Origin: Cytobacillus gottheilii
GTDB taxonomy: Bacteria > Bacillota > Bacilli > Bacillales > Cytobacillaceae
Length of the DNA stretch: 64,000 bases
Assembly: GCF_900166665.1 (NCBI RefSeq)
Contig: NZ_LT800494.1
Coordinates: 3,308,061-3,372,060, forward strand
Direction: 5' to 3'
This document shows, piece after piece, positions 9,988 through 58,497 of the stretch. The notes beneath the pieces were generated by a model. That model did not search any database and was not told the origin of the DNA. It saw only the letters and a list, made by a program, of their open reading frames with translations. The first letter of the stretch is position 1. Every line of letters starts with the position of its first letter. The translations under genes were made by a program, and so were the position numbers.

Positions 9988-10305
9988 TTCTTGTTCCCCC
10001 TCTACTTTAACGCTTTTATGCTTTTATTCACTAAATTATAAAGCTGCTTTATAACAAATTCAAGGGATTTTTTATAATTGAGGGATAATTTTGAAATTTA
10101 TGTGTCAGGATTGGTTATTTAACATGATGTTACGGCGTATTAGGGAGAGTGACATAGACTGAGGAAGTATATTCGATGAAAAGTGGGGATTTAAGTGAAA
10201 TTTTAATTAAATAGTGGGTTTATTATTAAAAATATGCCGTTTTCTAATCCTTAAATTAGGAGATTCCCTTTTAGATTGAAGTAATCAAAGCAAATTTATT
10301 GCGAT

Positions 10306-10452
10306 CCTATCAAAATTTTCGAGTTTCCTATCAAAATTATTGGTTTTCCTATCAAACTTCCCCGCTTTCCTATCAAACTTCCCCGCTTTCCTATCAAAAT
10401 AAAAGCTTTTCCTATCAAATTTGCGAGGTTTCCTATTAAATACTATTTCCCC
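10306..10452. repeat. Seven tandem 21-bp repeats
   Basis: Units start at 10306, 10327, 10348, 10369, 10390, 10411 and 10432, exactly 21 bases apart. Each begins CCTATCAAA (CCTATTAAA in the last) and the first six end in TTT; the middle 8-9 bases vary, except that units 3 and 4 are identical. All copies face the same way. Because 21 is divisible by three, every open frame shows heptapeptide repeats, but none has a plausible start and ribosome-binding site, so I treat the array as noncoding. Confidence 0.9.
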
Positions 10453-20574: not shown

Positions 20575-20661
20575 GATTTTTTCAGTGTATAAAGAGGATA
20601 TGAGAAAGCAACAATAACTATTTTAAACACGAACAATTAGATTTATGTTTAGATGTTAAAA

Positions 20662-20908
20662 CAAAGACCGTTACACTGCGCTGCGGTCCCTCGCTTTCCG
20701 CGGGGAGCAAGCTGAGCCTCCTCGTCACTTCGTTCCTGCGGGGTCTCACCCTTTGCTCTGCAGCCCGCTGGAGTCGAGGGGCCTCCGCTCCATTTCACTC
20801 AAATTTCCAAATTATATTTAGCAGTAGCAACAAAAAATTGGAATGATTAGAATCTTTTAGTTCTAATCATTCCAATTTATAGTTAACTTAAATACATATG
20901 CACACCTT
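20662..20908 (-). repeat. Dispersed structured repeat, family 1, copy R2 (ends degraded)
   Basis: The core (20675-20801) matches R1, R3 and R4 closely, with paired arms GCGGTCCCTCG and CGAGGGGCCTCCGC. The 20835-20878 hairpin follows. The outer GGGACA-type ends are not recognisable, so this looks like an old or partial copy. It lies directly 3' of hemY. Confidence 0.8.
20835..20878 (-). terminator. Perfect 18-bp hairpin inside R2, likely hemY terminator
   Basis: AAATTGGAATGATTAGAA and its exact complement flank an 8-base loop. On the minus strand the stem ends in a run of six T residues. It is 60 bases past the hemY stop codon. Confidence 0.75.
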
Positions 20909-37751: not shown

Positions 37752-38123
37752 ATGATGAAGGCAAAATCTTTTCTATTAGGTTTGATTGCCGGAGGTGCGG
37801 CTGCCAGCATTTCTGCCCTTTTAACAGCACCCGCATCCGGGAAAGAAACAAGAACTGTCATTCATACAAATAAAAATATCGTCAAACATCAATTAGATCA
37901 TGTAAAGGAACAGCTCTTAGATATAAAAAGGGCTACTACAACAGTAACAAAAGAAGGAAAAGTGGCTTTTGCGGCAATGTCCAAGGATCTGAAAGGCTCC
38001 GTCAATGACTGGAAAAATGAAATTCGCCCTCATGAACAAAACTTAAAGCGGGAAATCCAAGAGATTGAAACAGCCATTCAAGAATTAGAGACGACATTAA
38101 ATCAAGGCAAAAATTCCAATTAA
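37752..38123 (+). CDS. yhaH: YtxH-domain general-stress-type protein YhaH
   Basis: A 123-residue protein with an N-terminal hydrophobic glycine-rich segment SFLLGLIAGGAAASISALLTAPASGKETR, described here by its core GLIAGGAAASISALLTAP, followed by a long charged coiled-coil-like helix. This is the YtxH/YhaH family; members in B. subtilis belong to the general stress or sporulation response, but the function is not known. ATG 37752 follows GGGGAGG. In B. subtilis, yhaI and scoC follow; here yhaI is absent and a repeat array intervenes. Confidence 0.82.
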   Translation: MMKAKSFLLGLIAGGAAASISALLTAPASGKETRTVIHTNKNIVKHQLDHVKEQLLDIKRATTTVTKEGKVAFAAMSKDLKGSVNDWKNEIRPHEQNLKREIQEIETAIQELETTLNQGKNSN

Positions 38124-38127
38124 GCAC

Positions 38128-38170
38128 AGCATCTTTCCAAGAATTAAAATTCTTAGGAAAGATGCTTTTT
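38128..38170 (+). terminator. Intrinsic terminator of yhaH
   Basis: AGCATCTTTCC and GGAAAGATGCTTTTT pair, with an inner AGAATT/AATTCT stem, followed by a T-run. Confidence 0.88.
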
Positions 38171-38410
38171 AATGCTTTTTCAATATTTTTAAGTTTAATA
38201 CATTAGAAAAGAAGGATTTTTGTCTTTTTACACGAAAACTAATATATTATAAAAATGCTTTTATCCAAAGAAAAGATGAAACAAATCGCCTATTTTAAAA
38301 ACAAAATAACTGAAACACATAACAAGCAACTTCCCAAGAAATAATTTCTAAAAATTTCGCAAATTTATACCTTTATTAATTTTTGTTTTATTGGCATAAT
38401 GATAATATGA

Positions 38411-38948
38411 AATGTGGAAACGGCTTGCTCAGCCCCGACAAGCATAAGGCAAGTCATTTAGAAGGTTGTTCTTTAACCTTCTGGATGGATTGACTTATGA
38501 CCTCGAGGGGCTAGCCGTTGGAACTGGACTACTTAGAATGTGGAAGGCGCTTGCTCAGGGGCGACAAGCTTAAGACAAGTCGGCTGGAAGGTTGTACTTT
38601 AACCTTCTAGACGGATTGGCTTAAGACCTCGAGCCCCTAGCGCCCTGGAACTGGACTACTTAGAATGTGGAAACGGCTTGTTCAGCCCCGACAAGCATAA
38701 GGCAAGACATATAGAAGGTTGGTCTTTAACCTTCTGGATGGATTGACTTATGACCTCGAGGGGCTAGCCGTTGGAACTGGACTACTTGAAATGTGGAAGG
38801 CGCTTGCTCAGGGGCGACAAGCTTAAGACAAGTCGGCTGGAAGGTTGTACTTTAACCTTCTAGACGGATTGGCTTAAGACCTCGAGCCCCTAGCGCCTGG
38901 AACTGGACTACTTAGAATGTGAAAACGGCTTGTTCAGCCCCGACAAGC
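38411..38948 (+). repeat. Tandem array of about 126-bp hairpin units (family 2) upstream of scoC
   Basis: Units start at AATGTGG/AATGTGA at 38411, 38537, 38664, 38790 and 38916, spaced 126-127 bases; the last is a 33-base fragment. Two subtypes alternate, A-B-A-B-(A). Each unit contains the central stem AGAAGGTT/AACCTTCT (GGAAGGTT in B) and complementary outer arms. The A arms are AGCCCC/GGGGCT and AACGGC/GCCGTT; the B arms are AGGGGC/GCCCCT and GGCGC/GCGCC. Both arms change together, so pairing is kept. The array ends 34 bases before the scoC ribosome-binding site, in sense orientation. Confidence 0.92.
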
Positions 38949-38995
38949 AAAAAAACCGGAATTTTAATTTCCTTATAAAGCAGGTGAATATGTGT

Positions 38996-39571
38996 ATGTC
39001 AAATAAAGAATATACAATGAAAGAAGCATTACTTTTCAGCCAAAGAATAGCGCAGTTAAGTAAAGCATTATGGAAAGCTGTTGAAAAGGATTGGCAAAAT
39101 TGGATTAAACCATATGATCTTAATATTAACGAGCATCATATTTTATGGATTTCGTATCACTTGAATGGAGCATCTATTTCAGATGTAGCCAAATTTGGGG
39201 TTATGCATGTTTCTACTGCGTTCAACTTTTCAAAAAAGTTAGAGGAACGAGGCTATTTGCGTTTTTCTAAGAAGGAAAGTGATAAAAGAAATACGTATAT
39301 TGAAATTACGCAAGAAGGTGAAAACGTTTTACTAAATATGATGGAGTCTTATAAACCTGAAGAAAACTCAGTATTTTCAGGGGCATCACCTTTGCGGGAA
39401 CTATATGGAAAATTCCCTGATGTCATCGAAGTAATGACAATCGTACGAAATATTTATGGTGATGATTTTATGGAGATTTTCGAGAAATCGTTTGCAAACA
39501 TAGAAAACGAATTTACCGATAACAATGGAACAATTGAGAAAAAAGATAAATCGGAAAAAGAACTCGTTTAA
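38996..39571 (+). CDS. scoC: MarR-family transition-state regulator ScoC (Hpr)
   Basis: A 191-residue winged-helix regulator with [20 protein letters not shown] and IAKFG-type core [20 protein letters not shown] nearly identical to B. subtilis Hpr. It represses extracellular protease, peptide-transport and sporulation genes during the transition phase. Of two ATGs, 38996 ([10 protein letters not shown]) is best spaced from AGGTGA; 38990 is too close. The upstream region is a hairpin-repeat array rather than ordinary promoter DNA, so its control may differ from B. subtilis. The C-terminus is highly charged. Confidence 0.92.
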
Positions 39572-53865: not shown

Positions 53866-53990
53866 AAACATTCCTCCTTTATATAGTAAACGCTTACATT
53901 TTACTCTAAGAAGTATATGATTGATTGTCTTTATATCATTCGTCTCACATGATGATTATCCTGCTTTAGTGCAAATTTTTTATTGAAAAA

Positions 53991-54313
53991 GAGAAAGTGG
54001 CTTGGACAAAACGAAATTCTATTTCTAAGACTTGAATATAAATGTAATTGGTTTGGTCATTTAAACAAGCGCGTTCCATTGCGCTGCGGACCCTCGCTTT
54101 CCGCGGGGAGGAAGCTGAGCCTCCTCGTCGCACGGCTCCTGCGGGGTCTCACCTTTTCCTCTATTTCCCTCCGGAGTCGAGGATCCTCCGCTCCATTTCA
54201 CTCATATTTAAAAGAACTATTTTTAAATAACAAATAAAAAACCGAATGATTAGAAAGATGAACTTCCTAATCATTCAGTTCTATGTCATGGTTAATACTT
54301 ATGTTACAGCCTT
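53991..54313 (-). repeat. Dispersed structured repeat, family 1, copy R3
   Basis: A copy with left end GAGAAAGTGGCTTGGACAAA, the GC-rich core (54074-54205) with arms GCGGACCCTCG/CGAGGATCCTCCGC, the hairpin 54236-54280, and a decayed right end CTTATGTTACAGCC. It lies directly 3' of hemZ. Confidence 0.88.
54236..54280 (-). terminator. Hairpin in R3, likely hemZ terminator
   Basis: AACCGAATGATTAG and CTAATCATTCAGTT pair; the minus strand runs into six T residues. It is 46 bases past the hemZ stop. Confidence 0.7.
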
Positions 54314-54325
54314 TTTCTTGAAGGT

Positions 54326-55834: not shown

Positions 55835-55990
55835 TAGAATCACCTTTTTATAAAAACTATTTCCCTGTTGAAAATAGGATCGTATTTAAACAAACTTCTT
55901 TAAGTTTACAAAAGAGAGTATACAAGGTCAATATAAGAGTAACCTCAATGTGTAAACGAACCTCCCTTTCATTTAGCTTTATATTCAAAA

Positions 55991-56297
55991 GAGGGTGGGA
56001 CAAAACGAAATTAATCTTTCTAAAACACGAATATTCAATTTAAACAAGTCCGTTCCATTGCGCTGCGGACCCTGTTTTTTCGTGGGATCAAAAGCTGAGC
56101 CTCCTCGAAGCAAAGCTTCTGCTGGGTCTCACCCTTTCCTCTATTGCCCACAGGAGTCGAGGGGCCTCCGCTCCATTTCACTCATGTTTAGAAACATTAA
56201 ATGTTAAACAAAACAAAAAAAAAACCTAATGATTAGAAAGATTCACTTCCTAATCATTCGGTTCTGTGGTTGTGTTAAATACTTATGTCCCAGCCTC
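55991..56297 (-). repeat. Dispersed structured repeat, family 1, copy R4 (most complete)
   Basis: The best-preserved copy, 307 bases. The left end GAGGGTGGGACAAAA and the right end TTATGTCCCAGCCTC are imperfect terminal inverted repeats (GAGGCTGGGACATAA when the right end is complemented). Between them lie the core (56057-56190) and the hairpin 56223-56262. Ends plus internal structure resemble a MITE, but no target-site duplication was clear by eye. It lies directly 3' of yhaX. Confidence 0.9.
56223..56262 (-). terminator. Hairpin in R4, likely yhaX terminator
   Basis: AACCTAATGATTAG and CTAATCATTCGGTT pair; the minus strand then carries a long T-run. It is 50 bases past the yhaX stop. Confidence 0.72.
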
Positions 56298-58338: not shown

Positions 58339-58497
58339 TAGCTGCTGGCGCTAAGCAAGCGCCTTCCGCTTTTCTTTGTCTAGCTTCAGGCGCTAGGGAC
58401 TCGAGGTCTTAAGTCAATCCATCTTGAAGGTTAAAGGACAACCTTCCAGCCGTCTCGCCTTAAGCTTGTCGTCCCTGGGCAAGCGCCTTCCGCTTTT
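58339..58497 (-). repeat. Family-2 hairpin repeat upstream of yheA (one unit plus a short remnant)
   Basis: Read on the minus strand, the unit (58497 to about 58385) carries AGGGAC at 5' and GTCCCT at 3' as paired arms, GGCGC/GCGCC outer arms, CTTAAG/CTTAAG and the central stem GAAGGTT/AACCTTC, like the scoC array. A second short piece (58372-58339) has only GGCGCTTGCTTAGCGCC. It ends next to the yheA ribosome-binding site, in sense with the gene. Confidence 0.88.

Follow-up and report, generated by a model that had tools for sequence, protein, structure and literature searches.

The gene scoC, which encodes a global regulator, is preceded in the DNA studied here by a tandem array of long hairpins, and the question raised by this locus is whether the array was built to control scoC or belongs to a wider class of repeats. 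An earlier note on this DNA had proposed that it replaces the promoter-proximal region of the gene and could tune its expression through copy number. Positions given below refer to the window, meaning the whole stretch of 64,000 nt that was analysed.

Organization and folding of the array

Tandem Repeats Finder describes the region 38411-38949 both as 4.3 copies of a 126-nt period (78% matches, score 698) and as 2.1 copies of a 253-nt period (97% matches, score 1020). Folding agrees with this analysis, which bears out the original description of four hairpin units of about 126 nt and a fragment. Specifically, the forward strand carries units A1 (38411-38536), B1 (38537-38663), A2 (38664-38789) and B2 (38790-38914), followed by a terminal fragment (38915-38949) that corresponds to the first ~35 nt of an A-type unit. 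A2 differs from A1 by 5 substitutions over 125 sites and B2 from B1 by none over 124 aligned sites, plus one inserted base, while A and B units at scoC are separated by 23-27 differences over about 125 sites. The suggestion that an A+B dimer was duplicated is upheld by the 97% matches at period 253, as well as by the occurrence of A-B-fragment at the same site in Cytobacillus gottheilii.

When folded alone as RNA of the forward strand, each of the four units reaches -48 to -52 kcal/mol (z -3.3 to -5.3), and for each unit none of 200 shuffles folded as well. Two units were folded in both senses, and in each the forward strand was the more stable. With respect to known RNA families, a search of the whole window against Rfam 15 gave no match at the gathering score, and the only Rfam hit in the array, mir-628, scored 23.5 bits where the cut-off is 75.

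Probable promoter and leader of scoC

The gene that follows the array is indeed scoC (hpr), as NCBIfam NF010349 matches it at 333.7 bits against a cut-off of 153. We place the coding region at 38996-39571 on the forward strand, with the start at 38996 because the ATG at 38990 is missing from C. gottheilii. The ribosome-binding site GCAGGTG (38980-38986, forward strand) lies 30 nt downstream of the array end, a distance first given as 34 bases, and in most relatives this site is AGTAGGTGA-like. The gene upstream (37752-38123), which from its position we take to be YhaH-like, ends at an intrinsic terminator of its own on the forward strand (38129-38170, a 10-bp perfect outer stem followed by a T run; the fold of 38124-38185 has -21.2 kcal/mol), and this implies that scoC has its own promoter.

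Comparison of orthologues points to the location of this promoter. We compared 80 named scoC loci, chosen as the best of 402 relatives. A block like TTTATTGGCATAATGA is found 5′ of scoC in all 80 with at most 3 mismatches, and its extended -10, TGGCATAAT (38392-38400, forward strand, in the window), recurs as an exact 9-mer in 76. The block begins 38-101 nt upstream of the start of the protein match in 74 of the 80 loci. Larger distances occur at L063 (359 nt, array) and L116 (227 nt, one unit), and we also observed blocks 146-187 nt before the protein match at L112, L127, L128 and L129, where the leaders contain no family match. In public records titled Chryseobacterium sp. ISL-80 (L066), Pseudomonas sp. 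ISL-84 (L113), Paenibacillus sp. FSL R5-0490 (L092) and Paenibacillus sp. BSR1-1 (L130), the scoC locus resembles that of Cytobacillus, Mesobacillus or Neobacillus, and the organism labels look wrong.

Judging from the position of the -10 block, scoC transcription would start at about 38406-38410, that is, at the edge of the array. Above the block, a CodY-box-like motif at 38342-38356 (forward strand) is a candidate by sequence match, with 3 mismatches to AATTTTCWGAAAATT, the consensus given in a table of PMC4608796. The best CodY-like match within 100 nt above the -10 block has at most 3 mismatches in 59 of the 80 orthologues, as compared with 27 of 400 shuffled stretches, and in B. subtilis CodY represses scoC (PMC4608796). 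A consensus scan, which demands a -35 box and did not flag the extended -10 at 38392-38400, found two promoter-like sites on the forward strand farther upstream, at 38220-38256. The scan total over both strands (3, against 2.2 in shuffles) is at chance level, and a AATATATTA motif at 38241 is retained in 29 of the 80 orthologues. A second or different scoC promoter around 38220-38256 is possible on this evidence; all of the candidates sit above the array, and the leader would be longer if 38220-38256 were used.

Taken together, these observations contradict the proposal that the array replaces the scoC promoter region, since the conserved block is still present just upstream, and for the same reason we reject the array as a replacement promoter. 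They agree with the companion proposal that transcription into scoC passes through the hairpins, which is very probable given the upstream block and a consensus scan that found no promoter-like site on the forward strand inside or below the array. A role as terminator or attenuator was likewise considered and rejected, as no terminator-like site was found on the forward strand of the array by a scan that also missed the terminator at 38129-38170 and is to that extent weak evidence. The sole terminator-like site reported in the array is on the reverse strand (38735-38713; 1 found, 1.1 expected).

In terms of the leader as a whole, every unit retains its own hairpin when 38411-39020 is folded. 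The ribosome-binding site is partly paired in this fold, with an unpaired probability of about 0.2-0.6, and its partners are linker bases after the array rather than the units. An effect of this predicted pairing on scoC translation is possible.

The scoC site in related species

In the sister species, represented by C. gottheilii FJAT-2394 (L063), scoC is preceded by one A-B dimer and a fragment, giving 2 units against the 4 of the window, and the promoter block lies directly upstream of the array in both. Neobacillus paridis has a single unit at the same place and in the same direction in its scoC leader. These two species account for all cases among the 80 named orthologues; the remaining 78 have no element between the promoter block and scoC. 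Since this position is empty in other members of Neobacillus, N. mesonae among them, the simplest reading is that there were at least two independent insertions.

The C. gottheilii A unit differs from A1 at 5 sites, two of which form a compensatory pair (C-G to T-A), and its B unit differs from B1/B2 at 6-7 sites, with one compensatory pair change (G-C to A-T). Because A1 and A2 differ by the same number of sites (5) as A1 and the C. gottheilii A unit, the duplication may, for the A units, predate the species split.

A dispersed hairpin family

The scoC units are far from alone. A covariance model built on 51 copies (49 of the window genome, 2 of C. gottheilii) finds at least 100 matches in the window genome, where 70 matches to A and 111 to B were also counted (overlapping sets, fragments included). 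The family therefore has many similar hairpin copies at unrelated intergenic sites, which is the defining feature of dispersed intergenic hairpin repeats. One further copy lies in the window itself as a single unit on the reverse strand (58377-58496, a covariance match), with an orthologous copy in C. gottheilii (L158). The array is accordingly not specific to scoC, since it is one among these matches and the family shows no preferred orientation relative to genes.

Specifically, 13 clusters have the same orientation as their neighbouring genes, 13 the opposite one, 7 lie between convergent genes and 6 between divergent ones. This count covers 39 of 40 clusters, the other having no upstream ORF; gene calls were simple ORFs of at least 80 codons, and L060 (contig C3), the same array as L039, was left out. 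The lack of preference over 39 sites indicates that the repeats are not general leader regulators, and a cis-regulatory role at all family sites was rejected on this basis.

Every one of the 36 genomes of the genus carries the family, with from 1 to at least 100 matches each. The surveys of the order and class scored no more than 12 and 9 candidates in each genome, respectively, and therefore report presence rather than copy number. They found it in 183 of the 299 order genomes sampled (71 of 117 genera) and in 49 of 398 genomes of the class-level sample; 22 of these 49 lie within the order, and a single family, f49, accounts for the remaining 27. Literature searches, mainly outside subscription journals, returned no description of the hairpin family, and six element motifs searched as letters gave nothing relevant. 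With its presence across the order, no Rfam match and no description in the literature searched, the family is common and apparently unannotated. A plasmid or phage vehicle was considered and rejected, as 72,556 plasmid records yielded a single one with the family (from Cytobacillus spongiae, at 72% identity) and 50,697 phage records yielded none.

Several other repeats were observed alongside the family. A giant array at L041:1821-6433 (C4:356320-360932 of the same genome) contains 30 family hits at 312-bp spacing, made of a B-type unit and a variant unit with an extra two-hairpin module, and begins beside the stop codon of the upstream ORF. At L054 (C4:3195357-3201406) a tandem duplication of ~2.7-2.8 kb has a hairpin array in each copy, with the same flanks and 3 and 2 units. 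The window also contains a different dispersed repeat of about 330 bp, whose large structured core includes CGCTGCGGACCCTCGCTTTCCGCGGGG, at 1-229, 20656-20872, 53990-54318 and 55988-56296. This repeat has copies at other loci of both species, adjoins some hairpin arrays (L045, L049, L058) and gave no Rfam match within the window. A short tandem array with a 21-bp unit was reported by Tandem Repeats Finder at 10292-10441.

Structure and strand of the repeat unit

The unit spans 120 model positions and begins AAAGCGG. Base pairs have changed on both sides at 18 of 35 paired positions, and 97.5% of 1783 cells are paired, as compared with 84.4% in shuffles. Covariation is 0.393 against 0.164 in shuffles (0 of 500 as high), with all slid versions far lower; this test leans in favour of the structure, which was itself obtained from the alignment being scored. 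Columns belonging to the unpaired stretches TTGCTCAG, CGACAAGC and GACCTCGAG rank with the best conserved in the window genome. In a second alignment of 49 distinct rows, mostly from other genera and fitted to the model, towards which it leans, CGACAAGC and GACCTCGAG are still conserved and TTGCTCAG less so.

In the first set there are 129 G-U cells against 6 A-C cells, or 79 against 6 once the G-U pair that closes the loop is left out; the second set, of 49 rows, has 111 against 19. These cells are not independent and the excess rests mainly on the upper stem; counted by pairs, the figures are 10 to 3 and 12 to 9. Together with the compensatory changes and the conservation of the internal loops, the surplus of G-U over A-C points to a single folded strand, and it suggests that the form under selection is the forward strand, as RNA or single-stranded DNA.

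Units with mismatched A and B arms are present at two loci (L051 and L058). We also observed a recurrent insert module (CGCAGAC...CCACGTCCTGTGG...CCCACATCCTGTGGG or a sequence close to it) that sits at about one position within the unit, where it replaces the GCCCCGAC stretch; it is seen whole or in part at L041, L049, L053, L058, L059, L176 and L185.

Variation in unit number and site occupancy

Comparison of flanks identified 20 sites among the fetched loci that are filled in both the window genome and C. gottheilii, with L050, which is duplicated in the window genome, counted through one of its two identical copies. Full-unit counts differ at 11 of the 20, scoC included. The copy-number variation anticipated in the earlier note is therefore real in that the sister species differ (4 versus 2 units), but unit number also varies at the 10 other shared sites, so that variation alone is no evidence of scoC tuning. 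The closest units at shared sites have 1-9 differences over about 120 positions in 17 of the 20 pairs and 20-32 in the other three, where one subtype has probably replaced another.

For 16 loci of the window genome there was no C. gottheilii orthologue among the fetched loci, and the search for empty sites located 13 of them (14 sites), all but L045, L052 and L059. By our reading of the junctions, 7 of these 14 sites have a clear unit remnant in C. gottheilii and 6 do not, and at L044 only the repeat of a neighbouring copy is left. The remnants are mostly the first ~25 nt of the unit, or a unit with its hairpin deleted. At many family loci there are 3′ remnants like the terminal fragment at scoC, and at many arrays the truncated last unit resembles, by eye, the first unit of the array. 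The remnants and truncated last units fit a process of tandem growth and of palindrome deletion between direct repeats.

The clearest filled and empty pair, L074 (filled) and L080 (empty), has an exact left end before GAAAAGCGG, then the hairpin, then an AT-rich tail ~31 nt beyond the hairpin. No target duplication is present at this pair, and the other filled and empty pairs are too divergent to read. As regards the terminal inverted repeats of a classical MITE, the unit itself is one inverted repeat, with the tail lying outside it at some sites, and no parent transposon was found among the Y1 and TnpB enzymes searched.

Interpretation

Overall, we hold with good confidence that the array is a dispersed hairpin repeat inserted at the start of scoC and then expanded, and not a switch built for scoC. 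In the ancestor of the window species and C. gottheilii, an element (a ~120-nt unit forming one long hairpin with conserved internal loops and, at some sites, an AT-rich tail) would have become established immediately 3′ of the scoC -10, with the orientation of the gene. Duplication of the A+B dimer would have followed in the lineage of the window genome, with unequal recombination or replication slippage across the direct repeats as the most likely mechanism. With the conserved promoter driving scoC, the mRNA leader would be roughly 590 nt here and about 350 nt in C. gottheilii, as compared with roughly 20-90 nt in most relatives. This leader would consist of independently folding hairpins that are not terminator-like. 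The array is presumably read through, and any effect on ScoC would be small and exerted via leader stability or processing. We expect it to be modest at most.

The idea that dimer number acts as an expression rheostat, a contingency locus that tunes ScoC and hence proteases and sporulation, appears improbable. It is in keeping with the placement of the array in the predicted leader and in the direction of transcription, with the 4 versus 2 units of the sister species, and with the independent N. paridis insertion at the same place and in the same direction. Unit number varies just as readily elsewhere, however, with differences at 11 of the 20 shared sites, and the scan of the array gave no terminator-like or promoter-like site on its forward strand. 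Moreover, 78 of the 80 named orthologues lack the element between promoter block and scoC, and with tens of element loci per genome the 2 occurrences in 80 are, by a rough estimate, about what random placement might give. A leader RNA selected for scoC control, whether attenuator, riboswitch or protein-binding leader, is less probable still and we give it very little weight. The strong covariation, the conserved internal loops and the greater stability of the forward strand in the two units folded both ways are what such an RNA would display, but dozens of unrelated sites carry the same structure without favouring either orientation, there is no Rfam match, and conservation with the gene is lacking, as 78 of 80 named scoC leaders are without it.

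A more serious challenge concerns the structure itself, which could be kept by a mutational process, namely palindrome correction by template switching, with the repeats being inert DNA and no selection involved. Compensatory double changes do separate the orthologous copies (A1 and B against C. gottheilii). Over the 20 shared sites, pairing survived in 32 pairs that had changed on both sides and in 13 that had changed on one; the three divergent sites, where a subtype was probably replaced, supply 25 of the 32. A further 24 changed pairs are no longer paired in one copy or more. Pairing is thus kept, but not without exception, and the mismatched arms at L051 and L058 show that it is not strictly required for persistence. 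Template switching would nevertheless erase the unpaired internal loops, which are among the most conserved columns, and would not be expected to yield an excess of G-U over A-C without a preferred strand, an argument tempered by the ratios of only 10:3 and 12:9 when pairs are counted. We regard this explanation as unlikely, if less so than the two that invoke scoC control.

Returning to the inserted and expanded repeat, a broader proposal is that the family is a very widespread mobile hairpin element with one selected strand (the forward one, as RNA or single-stranded DNA), an exact left end and no target duplication, moved by neither Y1 nor TnpB and forming arrays at its own 5′ repeats. We put this forward tentatively, as plausible but short of probable. 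If this is true, the leader of a global regulator has been remodelled by a mobile element on two independent occasions. The strand-biased covariation raises the testable question of what folds and moves the family, and the 0, 2 and 4 units found in related species under one conserved promoter block provide a natural series for the effects of leader hairpins. For the window genome, the scoC array is ordinary, one of many copies, and the interest lies more in the family than in scoC.

Comparison with known systems

With respect to candidate enzymes, a Y1 transposase (PF01797) is found in 23 of the 36 genomes of the genus and is absent from 13, whereas the repeat is in all 36, and only 2 of 30 fetched Y1 loci (about 1.5 kb flanks) have a family copy nearby. 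TnpB is above the cut-off in 5 of the 36 genomes, with 7 at E 0.001 or better, and genome G013 has at least 100 family matches with no Y1 or TnpB match. An association with Y1 (RAYT) or TnpB is therefore not borne out by their distribution across the 36 genomes, and neither is a good candidate for the mover of the family.

REP and BIME sequences are dispersed palindromes between genes, often clustered, and the family to which the scoC array belongs resembles them in this respect. It differs in its unit of ~120 nt that starts AAAGCGG, as REPs are described as 20-40 bp long with GTAG or CGTC tags (PMC3733652), and in lacking the association with Y1 (RAYT).

Non-autonomous derivatives of IS200/IS605 elements that contain palindromes make no target duplication, have a hairpin inside and an exact left end. 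The L074/L080 pair is similar on each of these points, with no target duplication, an exact left end and an internal hairpin, but TnpB is rare in the genus and G013 has its many copies with neither enzyme.

The bcr1 repeat is reportedly specific to the B. cereus group. Like the present family, bcr1-bcr18 are high-copy intergenic repeats in Bacillaceae. About half of the bcr1-bcr18 copies are transcribed, some in 5′ or 3′ UTRs (PMC3446304), and Bcr1 forms stem-loops, with a length given as 147 or 167 nt (PMC2267715). The present family appears to differ in its wide occurrence, in 71 of the 117 sampled genera of the order. The family of the scoC array belongs among the dispersed hairpin repeats, a kind already known from bcr and REP.
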